A stretch of 9,628 bases of DNA from Candidatus Aminicenantota bacterium (lineage in GTDB: Bacteria; Acidobacteriota; Aminicenantia; Aminicenantales; Aminicenantaceae): contig JAFGNQ010000183.1 of NCBI GenBank assembly GCA_016926925.1, positions 1-9,628 of the forward strand. Direction: 5' to 3'. The notes under the pieces were generated by a model. It saw nothing but the letters and a program-made list of their open reading frames with translations, did no database searches and had not been told where the DNA came from. The translations under genes were made by a program, and so were the position numbers. Position 1 is the first letter of the stretch. The number at the start of each line of letters is the position of its first letter. This document shows positions 387 through 9,628 of the stretch, one piece after another.

Positions 387-3188
387 TTAGAACTGCAGTT
401 TTAATCCTACCTGAATGCGCCTTGGATAATCCATCCAACCGGGAATATTGAAATTCGCCTCATAGGCGTTGTAGGACCAATAGTCCAGAAATACATCCGT
501 GTTCAGTACGTTGAAGAAGTCGAGGAAGGCATGAATTCTCCAGGATTTGTAGATACGGAATGTCTTCTGCAGTCGAATATCCCACAAGTAATGATCTTCG
601 AACCTCCCTGGTATTGTCGTTCCATCTGACAGAGTTACATCAACGCCTTTCTCTTCGGCAATGATTCTTGTCCCCGGATAATAGGGATTCTGATTGAGAT
701 CCGGAATGCCAACTATTGTTATCCGCGGTTTTCCTGTCTGGTAGGAGAAATTTGTGCTGACCAAGATATCCCAGGGAAAATTGTAGCCGAATGAGAATTT
801 GAAGAGCCATCTCCGGTCGAGATTGAGGTATCCCTCGGAATTGATGAGGTCGTTGGGATCAGAGCCCTGTTTTCCGGTGTACCAGACCAGTGACTGGCTT
901 TGACTGTACCATCCAGTACTGCGCGAGGATAAATTAAGGCCTGTGGCTTTGGACCAGGTGAGAGATGTCTGCATCATCCAGCGATCGGAGTACTTCTTGT
1001 TAAGGGCCAGGATGATCCCATGGTATTTTTGTCCCCAACCATCAGGATTGGTGAGCAGGTGTTCCTCCTCCCCAGAATTGGTTATGTTGAATACCGTGTA
1101 GGTTTTTCCGTTGTCAGGGGATACTCTTTGTACCTCCTCGTAAATCCCGCCAATATCTCTGTAACCGATATTGTTCTTTCCATCCTTGTAAATATAAGTC
1201 AAGTCGACGGCAAAATTGGGAAATACCTCTCTCTGGAGTCCTACAGAGATCTGGTCAACATAGGGATTCTTCAAGTCGGGATCGACAATGTACCCCTGCT
1301 TTCCCGGAATTTCATACCACAGCTCCCAATCTGTTCCTATCCAATAATAGGCAATCCAATCCGGAACGTTGGGTCCAGGCCATTCCCAGTTGGCGATATA
1401 GGGATATGTGTAGTAGCGGCCTGCGGAACCTTTGAGCAATGTCTTCTGATCCGAGGTCAACTGTAAAGCAAATCCGAACCTTGGTGACCAGGATTTCCAG
1501 TCGATGAGGTTGTCAATTCTTGGTCCTTTTTCTGAGGTCTCCACCCAACCGTCCATTATAGTGAAAGGAGGAATGTATCCGTCGTGGTGGTCGAAACGGA
1601 GGCCGAAATTGATAGTCAATCGATCACTAACTTTCCATGAATCATCAAGAAATCCTCCGATGGTGTTCACCGTACCCCCGTAGCGCCAGACATTGTAGTC
1701 GTAGCGCAAGTAGTTATAACCATAGTAGTCTAAGTAGAGCTTCCCACCGCTATAGCTCCCCCAGGCTTCAGAAGTGCCGCGGTTGTATTGCACACCGACC
1801 TTGAAATCATGGTCACCACCGAGAAAGTCCTCAGCAAAGTAGGACAGTGTCGCATTGGCTGTATTTCGCGTGACGATATATTCCCAGGGCCATATGACCC
1901 CTCCCGATTGAATGCCTGTCCCTAAATCAATATGAACAGGATTGTTGACAGATGCTCCGGATTCTACTGCCTCAGGAGTAGGCAGAAAGTCAGATCCGCC
2001 CCAGTAACCTGAGTATTTGAGCTCGAAAAAGGCACTGTTGCTGATCAAAAATGTGTAGTGGGCATTCCAGGCATGAACCGGATCTGTTTCAGCACCGATA
2101 GTTTCAGGCATTTGCCATTCGCTAGGGGCATATGAGCCATACCCATACTGGTGGTCGTAAGAAAGAACGAAGCGGTGACTTTCAGTGGGCTGGATAGAGA
2201 ACTTGATGAACTGTTCGTTTTTTTTATTTTTAGATGGAAAGTCAGGATCGGTTTGCCACCACGATTCAAAATTATTGGCCAACTGTAAAACGCCGAAAAA
2301 CCAGAGTTTATCCTTGATCACCGGCCCGCCGAGTGTAGCTGCGACATCGAAAAAGCGGTGTCTTTTGTAAGAATCCCACTGCTCTTTATCAGGATTGTTG
2401 TCTCCGGTCAGGGCGTCAAACTGGCCATAGTAAGCAGCAGAACCTGAAAATATATTCCCGCCCGATTTGCTGACAATATTGACGACTGCTCCCGTGAAGT
2501 TGCCGTATTCAGAGGCTGCGCCTACGCCCTTGACTTCCACTTCTTCAAACATGTCGGCAGTAGACCAAATCCAGGCTGTGCCGATCTCGGGATTGCTCAG
2601 ATCGACACCATCCAGGTACATGGCATTTTCTTCTGAATTAGAGCCAAAGGCAGAAAATCGAGACTTGCCTCCCTCGCCAGTTAAAGAAAAGCCTGGATTC
2701 TGTTTGATAATGTCAAAGTATGTGCCTCGACCTGTAGGAAGTTTCTCGATAATATCCTTATCGTAGTTTGTGGTCAGGCTGGATTTGGTGACATCGACTA
2801 AGGGCGATTCCGCTGTGACTGTCACAGACTCTTCGAGTCTTGTCGGGCTCATAGTGATGTTTTCTGTTGTTGTGGTGTCGATGGCTACTCGCAAGTTTTC
2901 CCGTTCGATCGTCTGGAATCCTGGAAGAGTAAAAACGACACTATAGATACCAGGAGGCAAATTGATAAACCTGTATTCACCATCTTCATTCGTGATTTCA
3001 GACCGAGTGCCCATTAACGCCGGGCTCGAGATCTCGACGATGACCCCGGGGATAGCAATGCCTTGGTCATCAATGACTACTCCCATCAATCTTCCGGTTA
3101 GCCGTTGAGCATAGGCGAGGTCTGCAGATAAAAAAGAAATAGCGATAAAGCACACCAAACAGACAGATAAAATTTTTTTGGCTCCCAT
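387..3188 (-). CDS. TonB-dependent receptor with N-terminal carboxypeptidase-regulatory-like domain
   Basis: A 933-residue outer-membrane receptor. Residues 1-28 are a signal peptide (basic MGAKK start, hydrophobic core, cleavage likely after LAYA). Residues about 30-113 form a carboxypeptidase-regulatory-like beta-sandwich ('GVVIDDQGIAIPGVIVEI', 'NEDGEYRFINLPPGIYSVVF'). Residues about 118-245 form the plug ('ESVTVTAESPLVDVTKSS', 'ENAMYLDGVDLSNPEIG', 'GAVVNIVSKSGGN'). The rest is rich in alternating aromatic strands, as in a 22-strand barrel, and ends in the terminal aromatic 'RIQVGLKLQF'. No SusD-like partner, TonB or ExbBD lies nearby, so the substrate is unknown; glycans, peptides and siderophores are all possible. 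The Oar-like layout is typical of Acidobacteria. The ATG at 3186-3188 is preceded by GGAG with 5-base spacing and by a full-consensus promoter. It is divergent from the kinase gene. Length and domains look intact. Confidence 0.93.
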   Translation of the reverse strand: MGAKKILSVCLVCFIAISFLSADLAYAQRLTGRLMGVVIDDQGIAIPGVIVEISSPALMGTRSEITNEDGEYRFINLPPGIYSVVFTLPGFQTIERENLRVAIDTTTTENITMSPTRLEESVTVTAESPLVDVTKSSLTTNYDKDIIEKLPTGRGTYFDIIKQNPGFSLTGEGGKSRFSAFGSNSEENAMYLDGVDLSNPEIGTAWIWSTADMFEEVEVKGVGAASEYGNFTGAVVNIVSKSGGNIFSGSAAYYGQFDALTGDNNPDKEQWDSYKRHRFFDVAATLGGPVIKDKLWFFGVLQLANNFESWWQTDPDFPSKNKKNEQFIKFSIQPTESHRFVLSYDHQYGYGSYAPSEWQMPETIGAETDPVHAWNAHYTFLISNSAFFELKYSGYWGGSDFLPTPEAVESGASVNNPVHIDLGTGIQSGGVIWPWEYIVTRNTANATLSYFAEDFLGGDHDFKVGVQYNRGTSEAWGSYSGGKLYLDYYGYNYLRYDYNVWRYGGTVNTIGGFLDDSWKVSDRLTINFGLRFDHHDGYIPPFTIMDGWVETSEKGPRIDNLIDWKSWSPRFGFALQLTSDQKTLLKGSAGRYYTYPYIANWEWPGPNVPDWIAYYWIGTDWELWYEIPGKQGYIVDPDLKNPYVDQISVGLQREVFPNFAVDLTYIYKDGKNNIGYRDIGGIYEEVQRVSPDNGKTYTVFNITNSGEEEHLLTNPDGWGQKYHGIILALNKKYSDRWMMQTSLTWSKATGLNLSSRSTGWYSQSQSLVWYTGKQGSDPNDLINSEGYLNLDRRWLFKFSFGYNFPWDILVSTNFSYQTGKPRITIVGIPDLNQNPYYPGTRIIAEEKGVDVTLSDGTTIPGRFEDHYLWDIRLQKTFRIYKSWRIHAFLDFFNVLNTDVFLDYWSYNAYEANFNIPGWMDYPRRIQVGLKLQF

Positions 3189-3394: not shown

Positions 3395-6262
3395 GTCAAA
3401 TGTCCGAAGTGTCATTCTGAAAATGCCGAGAGTGCCAGCTATTGCTCTGATTGCGGCACTCATTTAAGGCTCCTTAAAGACATTCCTGAAGTTACTAAAA
3501 CAATAGAGACCCCTTTCCCCCAATTTACACCGGGCTCATCTCTAGCCGACAGATATGAAATCATCAGGGAGCTAGGCAAGGGAGGCATGGGAGAGGTCTA
3601 TTTGGCTGAGGACACCAATCTGAAACGTCAGGTGGCCATCAAGGTGCTTCCCCAGAAGTTCGCTCTGGACAAGGAGCGGCTGGCCCGGTTAGAGAGAGAG
3701 GCAAGGCTGCTGGCATCACTAAACCACCCGAACATTGCTACCATCCATGGCCTTGAGAGATCCGAAAGGCAGCAGTTCCTGGTGATGGAATTGGTAGAGG
3801 GCGATACTTTGGCCGAACGGATAAGGAAAGGGCCGTTGCCTGTAGATGAGACACTAGAGGTATGCCGACAGATCGCGGAAGGGCTGGAGTCAGCACACGA
3901 AAAAGGAATCATCCACCGTGACCTGAAACCATCCAACGTGAAGGTTACACCAGAGCGAATGGTGAAGATCCTGGACTTCGGATTGGCCAAAGCGTTTCTT
4001 GGCGAAGCCGCTGATTCGGGACTGTCCAAATCTCCGGCCATTACAGAGGAAATGACAGGGCGAGGAGTGATTCTCGGCACTGCTGCATATATGAGTCCTG
4101 AGCAGGCAAAAGGTAAGGCAGTTGATAAGAGGGCAGACATCTGGGCCTTTGGGTGTATTCTGTTTGAGTGTCTGACCGGGAAAAGGGTATTTAGAGGAGA
4201 TACAATCTCGGAAACTCTAGCCTCAATACTCAAAGATGAGCCCCAATGGAAAGATCTGCCGATTACCACTCTGCTAAAGATTACGGAGTTAATCAAACGT
4301 TGCCTCGTTAAGGATCCCCGAAATCGCCTTCACGATATTGCCGATGCCCGCATTGCTCTGGCAGAAATTCAACGTGAACCAGAGACGGCAATAATTTCAA
4401 CTGATCGAATGAAGGCTCCTGCTTTGCGTTTTTCCTGGGTATGGCTGCTCGCTAGTTTAATTGTGGGAGCCGCGGTTACGGCAATTGTGTTTTTCGGTTT
4501 GCTGCCGAGCCGTACTCAGGACATTGGAGACTATCAGAAGCAGTCACATTTCACTTTCGAACTGGATGAAGAGGAACAGATCGCTGTTGATATGGATCAG
4601 CTACTATTTGATATTTCGGCAAACGGAGAGACAATTGCCTGGATCGGGCCCCCTGAGCCTGAAAGAAAAATATTCTATCGTTCACTGGATAGTCTGGAGA
4701 TTAAGGCTGTTTCGGGAACGGAGGGAGCAGAAAACTTATATATTAAGCTCACTTTTGATGGCAGCGAGGTCTCGTTTGTTCGCGATGGGGTGCTTTGGCG
4801 GAGAACACTCGAAGGAGGAGTATCTCAGAAAATTTTCGATGGGGGGGCTGAGGGATCCATATGGAGTTGGGACTGGGGTAAGGATGGCTCTTTTGTTATA
4901 GGCCCGGCTTATTCCGGGTTGATCCGCCTTTCTAGGCCTGGAGCTGCACCTGAAACTTTGACTACGTTGAATGCCGAAGTGAATGAGGTTGTACACCAGT
5001 TTCCTCTTATTCTCCCGAATAAAAAAGCCGCACTTTTCTCGGTAGGCGCAGGGTATATGTATAATACGCACATCGAGACCCTGAATTTCGAAAGCCCTGA
5101 AGCAATAAGGCGACCCCTGCTTGAAAATGCGTATTTTGTCAATTATGTTCCCACCGGATATCTTCTTTTCGGGCGCGAAGGAACCATTTATGTGGCCCCT
5201 TTTGATTTGAAAAATTTGAGGTTGACTGGTCCGGAAGTGCCGGTGCTATCAAATATTCAAAGCGATCACTGGGGGATGGCTGACCAGTTTGCAGTCAGCC
5301 AGAATGGAACGCTAGTCTATATCCCCGAACAGGGATTAATGGACTATCAGCTGGCCTGGATAGATCTTCAGGGTGGGCTTGAACTGCTCCCTTTTCCATC
5401 GCAGCCGTATGGTAGTCTTAGGATATCGCCGCTTGCGGATCAAGTTTCTGTATGCAGCCGGAAGCTGGGACAGCGGGGAAGGAATCTCTATATCCTTGAC
5501 CTGCGACGGAACATAGCAAAGGAATTAGTGACAGCCGGAACAGATGATTACAATGGTTCATGGGGTTCTGACGGTTCCCGGCTTATTGTGAACTCCAACC
5601 AAGATGGACCTATAGCCCCATTCCTCATTGATTTTGCAGATACAACCGTCGAAAAAAAACTCATGACAAGTGAATATGATTGTCACGTAACATCTTGGTC
5701 CCGAGATGGCAAACAGCTCATTTACACGGAACGCTTGCCTTATGGGAAGATGCGCATCGGGAGCATTTCGCTTGGAGATCCGGAGAATAAAATAGCGTTG
5801 TTAACCTCTGGAGACGCTAACGAAAAGTCAGGTATCCTCTCTCCGGACGGATTGTGGATGGCCTATATTTCCTATCAACAGGAGCAGCCTGAAGTGTACA
5901 TTAGAAATATGGATGGCAGCATAAAGGAGAAGGTCTCGAGTGATGGAGGAGAGGAACCGGCTTGGTCTCTTGATGGAAAGAAACTTTTTTATATGAACAA
6001 GGAAGGAACCAAGCTTTTATCCGTCGAAGTGAAGAGAGGGGAGGAATTGGATTTAGGAAAAGAAACCGTAGTCATCGAAAAACCAGTTGGGTTCGATTTT
6101 TATAAAATTGGATGGCAATTTGGCAGGCCTTCTTACGATGTGCATCCTGACGGTCAGAAATTTCTGTTTATCGTCAAAAAGAAGAGCGAACAGAAAATGA
6201 AGGTGGGAGTCATCCTGAACTTTTTCGAGGAACTCAAGCGGAAGGTGCCTATTGGGAAATAG
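3395..6262 (+). CDS. Zinc-ribbon Ser/Thr protein kinase with transmembrane helix and WD40-like (PD40) beta-propeller
   Basis: About 955 residues if read from codon 3395; the first ATG is at 3587. Residue numbers count from 3395. Residues 3-20 are a Cys4 zinc ribbon (CPKC then CSDC). Residues about 54-330 are a Hanks-type kinase: glycine loop GKGGMGEV (61-68), ATP lysine K83 in VAIK, catalytic HRDLKPSN (H174, D176), DFG (D194), the APE-equivalent SPE (234-236) and DKRADIWAFGC. All catalytic residues are present. One hydrophobic helix (about 347-371) then crosses the membrane, putting the C-terminal half outside the cytoplasm. That half has PD40 beta-propeller motifs, for example 'SWSRDGKQLIYTE', 'ILSPDGLWMAYIS' and 'EPAWSLDGKKLFYM'. 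It is likely a receptor kinase sensing through the propeller; the ligand is unknown. The start is odd: the ATG at 3587 would cut the glycine loop, yet no canonical start codon exists upstream in frame back to the TGA at 3335. Homologues begin M-K-C-P-K-C, so GTC at 3395 sits where ATG is expected. Confidence 0.88.
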   Translation, partial: VKCPKCHSENAESASYCSDCGTHLRLLKDIPEVTKTIETPFPQFTPGSSLADRYEIIRELGKGGMGEVYLAEDTNLKRQVAIKVLPQKFALDKERLARLEREARLLASLNHPNIATIHGLERSERQQFLVMELVEGDTLAERIRKGPLPVDETLEVCRQIAEGLESAHEKGIIHRDLKPSNVKVTPERMVKILDFGLAKAFLGEAADSGLSKSPAITEEMTGRGVILGTAAYMSPEQAKGKAVDKRADIWAFGCILFECLTGKRVFRGDTISETLASILKDEPQWKDLPITTLLKITELIKRCLVKDPRNRLHDIADARIALAEIQREPETAIISTDRMKAPALRFSWVWLLASLIVGAAVTAIVFFGLLPSRTQDIGDYQKQSHFTFELDEEEQIAVDMDQLLFDISANGETIAWIGPPEPERKIFYRSLDSLEIKAVSGTEGAENLYIKLTFDGSEVSFVRDGVLWRRTLEGGVSQKIFDGGAEGSIWSWDWGKDGSFVIGPAYSGLIRLSRPGAAPETLTTLNAEVNEVVHQFPLILPNKKAALFSVGAGYMYNTHIETLNFESPEAIRRPLLENAYFVNYVPTGYLLFGREGTIYVAPFDLKNLRLTGPEVPVLSNIQSDHWGMADQFAVSQNGTLVYIPEQGLMDYQLAWIDLQGGLELLPFPSQPYGSLRISPLADQVSVCSRKLGQRGRNLYILDLRRNIAKELVTAGTDDYNGSWGSDGSRLIVNSNQDGPIAPFLIDFADTTVEKKLMTSEYDCHVTSWSRDGKQLIYTERLPYGKMRIGSISLGDPENKIALLTSGDANEKSGILSPDGLWMAYISYQQEQPEVYIRNMDGSIKEKVSSDGGEEPAWSLDGKKLFYMNKEGTKLLSVEVKRGEELDLGKETVVIEKPVGFDFYKIGWQFGRPSYDVHPDGQKFLFIVKKKSEQKMKVGVILNFFEELKRKVPIGK

Positions 6263-6406: not shown

Positions 6407-6817
6407 TTACATATCTTCTTTGCTTATGATCTTAATGAGTTCTGCTGCCCTCAGGATTCTGACGTTTTTGAATGTCTTCAGCTCGAGGAGATGGCGGTCG
6501 CCGGAGACGATATAATCGGCCTTTCCTGCGATAGCACAGTCCAGGATTCGGTTATCGGCACCGTTGCTGAGGATATCGATCTCAGCCGTCGGCCTTACGA
6601 GCTCTGCCGAATATCCAACGGTTCGGATGGCGTCGGTGATATCCTCATCCTCCCAGTCGAACTTTGTTCGAAGGCAGTTGGCGAACTCGGCCAGAATGCT
6701 CGAGGATGTCAGAAGATGAAAGGTCCTTGAGCGCGCAAGCTCGAAGAGCTGCTCCGGCTTTCCGCTGAAAAGAAACGCCGATATGAGGATATTCGTGTCA
6801 AACACGACCCGGATCAC
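6407..6817 (-). CDS. PIN-domain toxin of a type II toxin-antitoxin pair (COG1569-like)
   Basis: A 136-residue single-domain PIN protein, the usual size for this family. PIN domains are Mg/Mn-dependent RNases; as toxins they cut tRNA or other RNA. Candidate metal-binding acids are all visible: D7 in 'VVFDTNILISAFLF', E44 in 'SSSILAEFANCL', D88 and D93 in 'GADNRILDCAI', and D107 in 'ADYIVSGDRHLL'. The layout, with the GADNRILDCAI block and the SGDRHLL ending, resembles the 'putative toxin-antitoxin system toxin component, PIN family' group more than classical VapC. Translation starts at a GTG (6815-6817) with GGAG just upstream. Its partner's stop codon lies only 2 bp before it, so the pair is almost certainly co-translated. 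It converges on the kinase gene across a 144-bp gap. Family call is strong; the RNA target is unknown. Confidence 0.9.
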   Translation of the reverse strand: MIRVVFDTNILISAFLFSGKPEQLFELARSRTFHLLTSSSILAEFANCLRTKFDWEDEDITDAIRTVGYSAELVRPTAEIDILSNGADNRILDCAIAGKADYIVSGDRHLLELKTFKNVRILRAAELIKIISKEDM

Positions 6818-7079: not shown

Positions 7080-7140
7080 ACTTGACAAATAGTGTTCGAA
7101 TAGGGGAAAATAACCCCTGTAAGAACACGAAACGTCAAGT
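7080..7140. promoter_or_regulatory. 61-bp three-tier dyad operator overlapping the abiE promoter
   Basis: Three nested pairs of arms share one centre, base 7110: ACTTGAC/GTCAAGT (7080-7086 and 7134-7140), GTGTTC/GAACAC (7092-7097 and 7123-7128) and AGGGG/CCCCT (7102-7106 and 7114-7118). Twenty of 30 position pairs are complementary. The left arm contains a perfect -35 hexamer, TTGACA (7082-7087). An 18-bp spacer leads to GAAAAT (7106-7111), a 4 of 6 match to -10, so repressor binding would occlude the plus-strand promoter. The right outer arm reads TTGACG on the minus strand, a weaker -35 facing the toxin-antitoxin genes. AbiEi proteins are known to autorepress through inverted repeats in their promoters; that AbiEi binds here is inference. 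Confidence 0.65.
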
Positions 7141-7176
7141 TAAATAAGATTTTTACTTGATGTTTTGGGCATATAG

Positions 7177-7194
7177 AGGGGAAAATTATCCCCA
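7177..7194. promoter_or_regulatory. Second GGGG-N8-CCCC palindrome before abiEi (probable second operator)
   Basis: GGGG (7178-7181), then AAAATTAT, then CCCC (7190-7193) is a near-perfect palindrome: only one position pair (7183/7188) breaks it. It repeats the core of the upstream dyad (AGGGGAAAATAACCCC), with 8 rather than 7 bp between arms. The two centres are 75.5 bp apart, close to seven helical turns. TATAGA (7172-7177), a possible -10, abuts it. It lies 20 bp before the preferred abiEi start. Two operator copies would fit cooperative AbiEi binding. Confidence 0.55.
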
Positions 7195-7213
7195 TTGGAG
7201 CGCAAATCATAAA

Positions 7214-8011
7214 ATGAAAACCGCTGAATTCTTTTCCTTACATCCGGTTTTTTCTCTTGAGATGGCTGCTGAAGCCTTAAACCCTACGGGTGGTCAGACA
7301 GGGACAATAGAACGGCTCAAATATTATCTAGAAAAGGGACGGCTAAAGCTGATAACCCGGGGGATTTATGCAGTAATTCCTTCGAGTGTGGATCCTCAGC
7401 GATTCCAACCCGATCCTTTTTTGACAGCGGCCGCGGTCCGGACTGACGCTGTTTTTTCGCACCATAGCGCTCTTGAGCTCCTGGGAGCAGCCCATTCAAT
7501 GTGGGGGAAAATAACTCTTTATACGGAGAGAAGACGGAAACCTCTTCGCCTTGATGGCTCCAGCATACTTTTTCTGAACCATCCTAGATTAAAAATATCG
7601 AGTTTGCCGGAATCTTTCGGTACTCAAAGGGTAGAGAGGAGGGGGCAACTGTTGAGAACTACCGGTCCGGAACGAACGCTTGTCGAAGGATTTCGGCGGC
7701 CAGTGCTGGCCGGCGGACTTGAAGAGTTAGTTGATTCGGCCATTGGTTTTCCAACACTGAGTTTGGATCTTCTCGAGCAAGTCCTTTCTCGTTACGATAT
7801 CGCTATTCTATGGGCAGCGACAGGGTGGTTTTTAGAGCGTTTTCGGAAGACATTCCAGGTGAACGAGGAATTTCTCGAAAAAATCGAGCTCCGATGCCCA
7901 CGCTCCCCCCAGTATCTTGAACGAAATTCGCGTGGAGGTTGGCTCGCTTCGAGGTGGAACCTGATTCTTCCTGACGCGCTAAAACAGCCGGCAGAATATG
8001 ATAAGCGTTAG
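7214..8011 (+). CDS. abiEi: AbiEi-like antitoxin and transcriptional repressor of a type IV toxin-antitoxin system
   Basis: A 265-residue protein of the AbiEi/COG5340 type. In type IV systems this antitoxin does not bind the toxin but counters its effect, and it represses its own operon through an N-terminal winged helix. Residues about 1-55 fit that winged helix ('TAEFFSLHPVFSLEMAAEAL', 'GTIERLKYYLEKGRLKLI', 'TRGIYAVIP'). Family-typical segments follow: 'FSHHSALELLGAAHS', 'TTGPERTLVEGFRRP' and 'AIGFPTLSLDLLEQVLSRY'. The C-terminal 'CPRSPQYLERNSRGGWLASR' is also characteristic. I chose the ATG at 7214 because the family conventionally starts at 'MKTAEFF'. In-frame TTG/ATG at 7157/7160 would add 18-19 unrelated residues and translate through the second palindrome. 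Its stop overlaps the abiEii start by 14 bp, implying translational coupling. Confidence 0.88.
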   Translation: MKTAEFFSLHPVFSLEMAAEALNPTGGQTGTIERLKYYLEKGRLKLITRGIYAVIPSSVDPQRFQPDPFLTAAAVRTDAVFSHHSALELLGAAHSMWGKITLYTERRRKPLRLDGSSILFLNHPRLKISSLPESFGTQRVERRGQLLRTTGPERTLVEGFRRPVLAGGLEELVDSAIGFPTLSLDLLEQVLSRYDIAILWAATGWFLERFRKTFQVNEEFLEKIELRCPRSPQYLERNSRGGWLASRWNLILPDALKQPAEYDKR

Positions 8012-8981
8012 TCTGGAATATTTAGAGCGTTGTGCCGCCGATACCGGCTTCGAGATCGGTCCGCTCGAAAAAGTGATCCGACTCGGAGAGCTGGCCTCAC
8101 ATATTGCTCGGCACTCAATTCTCAAAGAGTCTTTGGTCCTAAAAGGAGGGTCAGCGCTCAATCTATGCTTTGGGCCGCCGAAGCGGCTTTCTGTCGATCT
8201 TGACTTCAATTACGTTGGCCATGCAGAGCGCGAGAGAATGCTTGAAGACAGGCCGCGAATAGAAGAGGCTGTAGCCGAAATATCACGCCGTCTGGGTTAT
8301 CGCGTTCAAAGCTCGGCCGAGGCATTCGCTGGACGGAAGCTTTTTCTGCTCTTCCGTTCAGTATTGGGTCAAAACGAACGGATTGAAATCGATTTAAATT
8401 ACGTTTTCCGTGTCCCGTTCGCTGGAATTGAAGAGCTTCAGCTTTGGCAGCCGGGAGAACTGGAAAAGCCATATGCCCGTGTCGCTGGATTAGTAGAACT
8501 TCTCATAGGAAAAATGCTTGCAATGCTGGATAGGGGAGCGGTTCGTGACGTCTGGGACGTGGCGAACCTGTCCAAACAGGCGCTCAATGTAATGAAGGAG
8601 CGGTCTTTTCGGGCTCAGTTCATTGCCCTATCGGCAGTCCTGGGTCATCCCCTCTCAACTTATCATCGAGAGAGGCTCGAGAGGCGTATCGGCGATCGCA
8701 TCATCAAAGAAGAGCTCCTTCCATTATTGATAGGTAATCCTTCTTTGAATGCGAATGAACTTGTCCAAAAGGCTTGGGCTGTCGTCGGGCCTTTCACAGA
8801 ATTGACAAGAGCGGAAAAGGAATATCTTGATAAGATTCACGAAGGCGTTTTAAATCCCGAAATTATTTTTCCAAATGCCCCGGAAAAATCCGCAAAATTC
8901 GCCGTTCACCCCGCTATTTTATGGAAAGTCTCTAATGTTCGTTCGTATTTGAGGGATGAAAAGAAGAGTAGCCGTGGCTAG
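7998..8981 (+). CDS. abiEii: AbiEii nucleotidyltransferase toxin (type IV toxin-antitoxin system)
   Basis: A 327-residue DNA polymerase beta-superfamily nucleotidyltransferase of the AbiEii family. These toxins transfer nucleotides to RNA (tRNA acceptor stems in characterised relatives) and cause growth arrest and phage abortive infection. The fold signature is complete: 'LVLKGGSALNLCFG' (G51, S52), the metal-binding DLD pair in 'SVDLDFNY' (D67, D69), and the third acid D132 in 'IEIDLNYVFRVPF'. The AbiEii-specific 'LLIGKMLAMLDRGAVRDVWD' (K172, D184) follows. The N-terminus 'YLERCAADTGFEIGPLEKVI' is also family-typical. The ATG at 7998 lies inside the end of abiEi, so both are read from one transcript. 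There is no strong ribosome-binding site, consistent with coupling to abiEi translation. No catalytic residue is missing, so the toxin should be active. It is followed after 59 bp by the TOTE primase gene on the same strand. Confidence 0.92.
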   Translation: MISVSLEYLERCAADTGFEIGPLEKVIRLGELASHIARHSILKESLVLKGGSALNLCFGPPKRLSVDLDFNYVGHAERERMLEDRPRIEEAVAEISRRLGYRVQSSAEAFAGRKLFLLFRSVLGQNERIEIDLNYVFRVPFAGIEELQLWQPGELEKPYARVAGLVELLIGKMLAMLDRGAVRDVWDVANLSKQALNVMKERSFRAQFIALSAVLGHPLSTYHRERLERRIGDRIIKEELLPLLIGNPSLNANELVQKAWAVVGPFTELTRAEKEYLDKIHEGVLNPEIIFPNAPEKSAKFAVHPAILWKVSNVRSYLRDEKKSSRG

Positions 8982-9007
8982 AACAAGGCACAGGATAGAT
9001 TTTCTTT

Positions 9008-9017
9008 AGGGGTTAAC
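9008..9017 (+). promoter_or_regulatory. Possible AbiEi operator half-site before the TOTE gene
   Basis: AGGGGTTA (9008-9015) is identical to the right half of the abiE dyad read on the minus strand (7118-7111). No matching CCCC arm follows, so this is a half-site at most. A TTGACA (9023-9028) sits nearby, but too close to the GTG at 9041 to drive it from a -35 position. Eight matching bases can occur by chance. Confidence 0.2.
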
Positions 9018-9040
9018 TGCTTTTGACATAAGAGAATAAA

Positions 9041-9628
9041 GTGGAATCCAAGGAAATAGCGCGCCTCGTAGCTGATGCTGAAAATCGGCTAAAACAGCTC
9101 GATGAAAGGCGAGTTAAGATTCTCACTGAGCTGGAAGATCTCCGCAAAAGACAAAAAACGCTTCTTAAGATCAGAGAACCCGAATCTCTATTTTCCCAAG
9201 CTTCGGTTACAAAAGATTCTACTGCCGATGAAAAGATTGCTCTTTTTCGTTCTTTATTCAGGGGAAGAGAGGACACTTTTGCACTCAGATGGGAAAGTTC
9301 CAGGAGTGGTAAGGCTGGTTATCAACCTGCATGCCGGAATGAATGGGTTAAGGGTATGTGTCGAAAGCCGGAGATTAAATGCGGAGAATGTGCGGCTCGT
9401 GATCTTGTTCCGCTCACTGAATCTGTGATAAGAAACCATCTCAAAGGATTCGATCCCGATAAGCCTCGTGTATCCGCTTCAAGCCGAGAGTTTGTCGTCG
9501 GGCTCTATCCTCTGTTACCTGATAATACATGTTATTTTCTCGCTGCCGACTTCGATAAGGATACTTGGATGGAGGATATATCGGGATTCATTGAAACATG
9601 CAGGGAATATGAGATTGTCAATACGCTG
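9041..9628 (+). CDS. TOTE conflict system archaeo-eukaryotic primase (AEP) protein, N-terminal part (cut by window edge)
   Basis: The frame is open from GTG (9041) to the right edge, 196 codons with no stop. The GTG is the only start: an in-frame TAA lies at 9029-9031. Residues about 1-45 are a charged coiled coil ('ENRLKQLDERRVKILTELED'). Residues about 64-196 match the AEP domain of TOTE conflict systems: 'DEKIALFRSLFRGREDTFAL', 'SGKAGYQPACRNEWVKGMC', and a Cys cluster (C98, C107, C114, C117) likely binding zinc. 'PLTESVIRNHLKGFD' and 'FVVGLYPLLPDNTCYFLAAD' lead into the metal-binding D170-F-D172. In known TOTE proteins the primase is followed, in the same chain or the next gene, by a superfamily II helicase and a nuclease. 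Those parts are expected beyond 9628. The systems are predicted to act against invading nucleic acid. Only AGAG precedes the start, so the ribosome-binding site is weak. Direction and spacing suggest possible cotranscription with abiEii. Confidence 0.87.
   Translation, partial: MESKEIARLVADAENRLKQLDERRVKILTELEDLRKRQKTLLKIREPESLFSQASVTKDSTADEKIALFRSLFRGREDTFALRWESSRSGKAGYQPACRNEWVKGMCRKPEIKCGECAARDLVPLTESVIRNHLKGFDPDKPRVSASSREFVVGLYPLLPDNTCYFLAADFDKDTWMEDISGFIETCREYEIVNTL

Follow-up and report, generated by a model that had tools for sequence, protein, structure and literature searches.

We conclude that the window, the whole 9628 nt stretch of Candidatus Aminicenantota DNA analysed here, is best explained as breaking off part-way through TOTE, third in an operon of abiEi, abiEii and TOTE, a reading to which we give about an even chance. 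Taken by itself, the cut-off gene is an ordinary TOTE family member, the 5' part of a kind of primase-helicase conflict gene that is known but has received little study. The gene is new within a known family; the recurrent order in which AbiE precedes TOTE is the new part, and is worth following.

The gene at the right edge (9041–9628, + strand) has a GTG start and runs for 196 codons to the contig edge, where it is still open. The earlier note had called it TOTE-type on account of SGKAGYQPACRNEW, KCGEC, LYPLLPDNTC and DFD, and had proposed a profile search. All four blocks are present, and the search assigned residues 64–193 (9230–9619) to the first half of the AEP-TOTE domain (PF22548, profile positions 1–116 of 230; NCBI also uses the name TOTE conflict system AEP). 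As the score was 149.4 bits against a Pfam cut-off of 27 (E = 1.6e-43), the match is not due to chance, and the interpretation as TOTE-type is supported. In an alignment of 81 TOTE proteins, each of the three residues of DFD (residues 170–172; 9548–9556), which from our knowledge of the AEP superfamily we take to be the first catalytic motif of the primase, is kept in 74/77 filled rows. Four cysteines (98, 107, 114 and 117; 9332–9391) that are kept in 65–66 of 74–75 filled rows probably form a metal site. The N-terminal stretch (residues 2–42; 9044–9166), helical as judged by eye, had been described as a coiled coil and a visible extra. The coiled coil is likewise a judgement by eye, and the stretch is not an extra but a feature of the TOTE family, because the columns that hold window residues 10, 20 and 30 are occupied in 63–64/81 rows. 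The window thus shares with the family the visible half of the primase, the DFD, the cysteines and the helical N-terminus. When the 196 aa fragment alone was used to query solved structures, nothing below E = 0.3 was returned.

Relatives include L001 (Desulfobacteraceae, 821 aa), L002 (Nitrospiria, 800 aa) and L003 (Bacteroidetes). In L001 and L002, AEP-TOTE is followed by ResIII/DEAD and then by Helicase_C, which is below cut-off in L001. A structure search with L001 returned XPBII and RAD25 as the best solved relatives of the helicase, and 7nqd (E = 1.3e-9) and 7nqf, which we take to be CAPP structures, as those of the primase. The helicase part was matched in 75/82 related loci (all but the window), and primase and helicase are in one frame in 69/82. 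The seven loci with no helicase match comprise four that are cut by a contig edge and three that are broken or unclear. A full-length profile returned 7996 proteins at E = 1e-50 or better, and all 120 of those listed contain PF22548 and PF04851, with PF04480 also present in P0081. As that profile was full-length, its matches cannot show that primase-only relatives are absent, and the 82-locus count is the better evidence for the helicase. The window's own full-length protein is not among the 120 listed, and the closest blastp matches among them share 49–54% identity with its 196 residues.

Nuclease-like C-termini are found in some relatives (PLDc_2 in L039 and L050, DUF559 in L065). A C-terminal extension of at least 80 aa is present in 9/64 frames that reach the helicase end in the L001 frame and absent from 55/64, a count that leaves out the L069 class described below. 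In the five tree rows nearest the window (L057, L001, L068, L063 and L065), only L065 has a nuclease-like C-terminus. On these counts, and by homology, the window's gene, visible only as half of a primase domain, very probably continues for about 800 codons that would encode the rest of the primase and, as in relatives of the same kind, an XPB/RAD25-like SF2 helicase. The presence of a nuclease is doubtful, as the nearest relatives mostly lack one, unlike the textbook form of TOTE. In a class of about 1000 aa (L069, L094, L097, L105, L112, L104 and L099), the helicase is followed by a conserved C-terminal part of about 290 aa. In L069, no Pfam match was found after the helicase and no nuclease motif was recognised there by eye; the C-terminus of this class may be an unrecognised nuclease or sensor. 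In L068, the TOTE gene is split by an insert of approximately 1.4 kb (about 8218–9604) that holds a 388 aa frame.

Upstream of the TOTE gene, a gap of 59 nt (8982–9040, + strand) with no promoter- or terminator-like site listed separates it from abiEii (7998–8981, + strand), a nucleotidyltransferase toxin gene of 327 codons that matches PF08843 (E = 3.2e-25; 89.9 bits against a Pfam cut-off of 22.5) and a PADLOC model (1.2e-74). This gene overlaps by 14 nt an abiEi-like antitoxin gene (7157–8011, + strand) whose match to PADLOC AbiEi (3.1e-62) begins at residue 20, and for which Pfam AbiEi_1 scores 15.5 bits, under the cut-off of 22.2. Translation of abiEi more likely starts from the ATG at 7214, the point at which the profile match sets in. 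The TOTE gene does therefore lie directly behind a toxin-antitoxin operon, and this was the most informative part of the earlier note. As the three genes are on the same strand with only the overlap and the short gap between them, we infer that they probably share one transcript. Promoter- and terminator-like sites in the region are no commoner than in shuffled sequences, and the one promoter-like site before abiEi (7082–7111) is within chance. The window AbiEii fits both nucleotidyltransferase motif patterns; among eight directly linked AbiEii, the first pattern fits 6/8 and the second 7/8. Elsewhere in the window, a PIN-domain toxin gene (6407–6817, − strand; PIN_3 2.7e-18, TIGR00305 2.9e-17) precedes the abiE pair on the opposite strand. 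Two further genes encode a TonB-dependent-receptor-like protein that includes a carboxypeptidase regulatory domain (387–3188, − strand) and a Ser/Thr kinase with PD40 repeats (3587–6262, + strand), and may point to Acidobacteriota-like bacteria. No Rfam families or tRNAs were found in the window.

PF22548 was found in 79/297, 29/295 and 29/395 genomes from the phyla of G001, G002 and G003, the genomes that hold L001, L002 and L003, respectively. AbiEii was sought in the 84 genomes where TOTE matched strongly (34 genomes made up of 32/79 from the first phylum together with G002 and G003; a further 23/29 from the second; and a further 27/29 from the third), and 80/84 were counted. The four left out (G322, G563, G663 and G946) have fragments or weak matches, and the G322 fragment has AbiEii beside it. 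An AbiEii within 5 kb of TOTE was found in 17/80 genomes from three phyla, and directly upstream on the same strand in 7/80 (G261, G288, G003, G039, G465, G791 and G814), where 0.89 and 0.034, respectively, were expected from AbiEii density under random placement, which ignores defence islands. Distances were measured from the primase match to the AbiEii match; by gene edges, G425 (4.8 kb) would also count. A remnant of AbiEii next to TOTE in G145 was below the cut-off and was not counted. Three of the 17 genomes (G524, G554 and G580) are from one clade, and the AbiEii of G524 is a remnant.

In the same 80 genomes, no HsdM was within 5 kb of a TOTE match among 150 listed of 302 rows, and no ParE among 150 listed of 450 rows. 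The nearest HsdM among the matches listed is 5.2 kb from the TOTE match, or 4.99 kb by gene edge (G590). By rows, 17/238 of the AbiEii rows and 3/302 of the HsdM rows were near TOTE (p = 1.6e-4, with random placement assumed for the expectations); the three HsdM rows are neighbour cluster C13, one member of which was confirmed as HsdM. When the 695 ORFs that lie no more than 5 kb from TOTE in 83 loci (one of them the window) were clustered blind, 22 neighbour families emerged, the ten largest of which were annotated via one representative each. AbiEi was the largest, with 12 loci, ahead of two groups of AbiEii with 8 each; next came SNF2 helicase (7), HsdR (6), AAA_14/DUF4143 (6) and DUF4062/HATPase (6).

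In held-out TOTE-positive genomes (12 + 4), AbiEii was within 5 kb in 0/16, an outcome with a probability of 0.02 if the first rate applies and of 0.23 if the direct-upstream rate does. With both sets pooled, AbiEii is within 5 kb in 17/96 (1.07 expected) and directly upstream in 7/96 (0.041 expected). The excess of AbiEii near TOTE stands and its rate is uncertain. AbiE is clearly optional: it is absent near most TOTE genes (63/80 genomes), and only some have it directly in front, as the window does.

Several observations bear on how independent these linkages are. A quick tree of 79 TOTE proteins, made by a short search and with long branches, requires eight changes for the eight directly linked rows (one of them the window); the window fills 22% of columns, and changes cannot separate gain from loss. 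The linked AbiEii belong to different PADLOC subtypes, PDLC02305 in the window and L068, and PDLC02294 in L069 and L108. On plasmid pCNAC48 of Aliarcobacter cryaerophilus, a 212 aa gene (AbiEi_4, E = 0.0092, below cut-off), AbiEii (PF08843, 3.8e-30) and, 6 nt further on, a TOTE primase-helicase (PF22548, 8.8e-69) lie in one direction. The recurrence of an AbiE pair before TOTE in distant bacteria suggests that both may belong to one defence unit.

AbiE is not the only kind of gene in this position. A search for genes on the same strand within 400 nt of TOTE found 51 upstream proteins, and 48 were scanned (L078, L090 and L117 left out). Pfam matches among the 48 were to AbiEii (6), HTH_26 (5), Fic (3) and PemK (1). 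The direct AbiEii of L064 and L080 are missing from the 48 because their frames overlap that of TOTE, and four of the five HTH proteins (L075, L082, L084 and L088) look like one clade (cluster C10). A PIN gene is directly upstream of TOTE in L051. In L120, a contig from a viral collection, a RelE-type toxin and an HTH antitoxin-like gene (450–1137, + strand) are directly before TOTE; genes on its far side looked phage-like by eye. On a plasmid of Acinetobacter baumannii, TOTE is preceded by HigB and a regulator, the regulator 25 nt away, and a toxin-antitoxin pair is directly in front in 2/9 plasmid TOTE loci opened. None of the three E. coli chromosomal TOTE loci opened, one of them a remnant, has a toxin-antitoxin gene directly in front. 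It is possible, if on balance unlikely, that TOTE genes have a promoter-proximal slot that is repeatedly plugged with growth-arrest modules (AbiE most often, and HigB/RelE-type, Fic, PemK/MazF and PIN), which would allow abortion should the primase-helicase fail, or would tie the cell to the locus. If so, TOTE would provide immunity with a back-up that can be exchanged. The Fic proteins directly upstream are of 473–501 aa (L056, 186–1682, + strand; L071, 1309–2814, − strand; L072, 8708–10129, − strand). Similar-looking genes of 184–201 aa overlap the TOTE start by 14–20 nt in L044 (759–1322, + strand), L040 (8894–9499, + strand) and L073 (7204–7758, + strand); that of L044 has no Pfam or PADLOC match. 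Possibly, they encode a dedicated TOTE partner.

Our working model, which we put forward tentatively as a whole, is a TOTE defence with AbiE as its abortive-infection back-up. The TOTE helicase would track along invading or replicating foreign DNA and the primase would prime or copy it, and the invader would be hindered. AbiEi would repress the operon and keep in check AbiEii, a putative toxin whose family has been proposed to inactivate tRNAs. Growth would then be stopped by AbiEii when host expression is shut down, or TOTE overcome, by an invader. AbiE would be an optional back-up that helps to keep the locus, and no working part of TOTE. If AbiE and TOTE do act together, TOTE gains a testable role, that of a defence backed up by abortive infection from within its own operon, and the connection already known for toxin-antitoxin pairs with CRISPR-Cas would be extended to a primase-helicase system.

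A possibility of real weight is that defence islands accumulate both AbiE and TOTE as independent genes, so that their nearness has no functional link. Other defence genes are indeed found near TOTE, with HsdR in 6/83 loci, SNF2 helicase in 7/83 and a type III Res before L002 (ResIII and RE_endonuc domains are among the upstream proteins), and both the held-out genomes and the E. coli loci opened fit independence. Against it, AbiEii was close to TOTE in 17 genomes and HsdM in none among 150 listed of 302 rows from the same 80, and the AbiEii-TOTE order recurs, its gaps ranging from about −23 to 60 nt. The broken TOTE genes bear on both readings. In 3/7 direct cases TOTE is broken (314 aa in G261, two pieces in G039 and a stop in G791) beside an AbiEii frame of 308–323 aa, as independent genes would allow. 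Loss of TOTE alone thus releases no deadly toxin there, and because TOTE was lost without loss of AbiE, these cases argue for a back-up role and against a strict guard.

It is improbable that the window's gene is a fragment or decaying copy and that TOTE does nothing here. The contig ends within the frame, and many TOTE genes are broken: among 5426 complete E. coli genomes, 1714 have a match, which in 681 spans 80% or more of the gene, and broken copies include a frameshifted E. coli remnant and the AbiE-linked cases above. However, the 196 codons contain no stop and keep the conserved sites, and the adjoining AbiE frames are open. The 681 E. coli genomes also make TOTE genes common. We consider it still less probable that the gene serves a mobile element as its replication primase-helicase and is not a defence gene. 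TOTE-like genes are carried by plasmids (247 records match the L001 protein, 91 over at least 80% of its length), for example pSinB, where one is beside tra genes, and E. coli TOTE loci have integrase, AlpA and DUF3987 genes nearby. The window neighbours are instead a TonB-type receptor, a kinase, a PIN protein and AbiE, and among the window frames scanned, which are part of those left of the edge, none was recognised as a replication or transfer gene.

The least probable reading, to which we give very little credence, is that the gene encodes a CRISPR-associated primase-polymerase with a helicase (CAPP_A, third type). The L001 primase is related to 7nqd, and the best PADLOC model for the 196 aa frame is a PrimPol labelled Cas-associated (1.5e-34), a model that full TOTE proteins match too. 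The accessible text of PMC8211822 describes some CAPP_A members with a helicase, behind a related primase in one type. The earlier note had named assignment to another AEP clade as the outcome that would count against TOTE. CAPP membership was rejected on score, as NF040561 (CRISPR-associated primase-polymerase type A1) gave 31.7 bits against a cut-off of 200, so the 196 aa frame misses the curated A1 model. No cas gene was seen in five window frames or in the 22 neighbour families (ten largest annotated), and neither cas1/cas2 nor a CRISPR array was found among the window frames scanned, the right flank being beyond the contig edge.

The abiE pair itself resembles known type IV AbiE toxin-antitoxin systems, in which, in the accessible text of PMC7725324, AbiEi-like and AbiEii genes overlap in one operon as in the window, and tRNAs are the proposed target of the toxin family. 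The window differs by the primase-helicase gene that comes next in the same direction. In the accessible text of PMC12737573, CreTA is an RNA pair that is held down by Cascade and guards CRISPR-Cas, and so places a growth-arrest pair with a defence system, as AbiE is placed with TOTE. The likeness is of logic only: any control of AbiE by TOTE would be hypothetical, and TOTE is broken beside AbiE in three of the seven direct cases. That AbiE and TOTE are functionally coupled is a hypothesis.

In the open literature, most subscription papers being outside its scope, we found no paper that names TOTE conflict systems and none that pairs AbiEii with an archaeo-eukaryotic primase, a pairing that may be in print elsewhere. 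Among the papers listed by a broader open-literature search, none describes an AbiE-TOTE pair in its title or the start of its abstract.

None of the 1151 phage records with a match covers 80% of the TOTE protein, as expected of a host-side gene. In viral contigs, six loci encode a TOTE relative, of which L120 and, by coordinates, L119 were looked at. The frameshifted E. coli remnant lies near pap and aerobactin genes.
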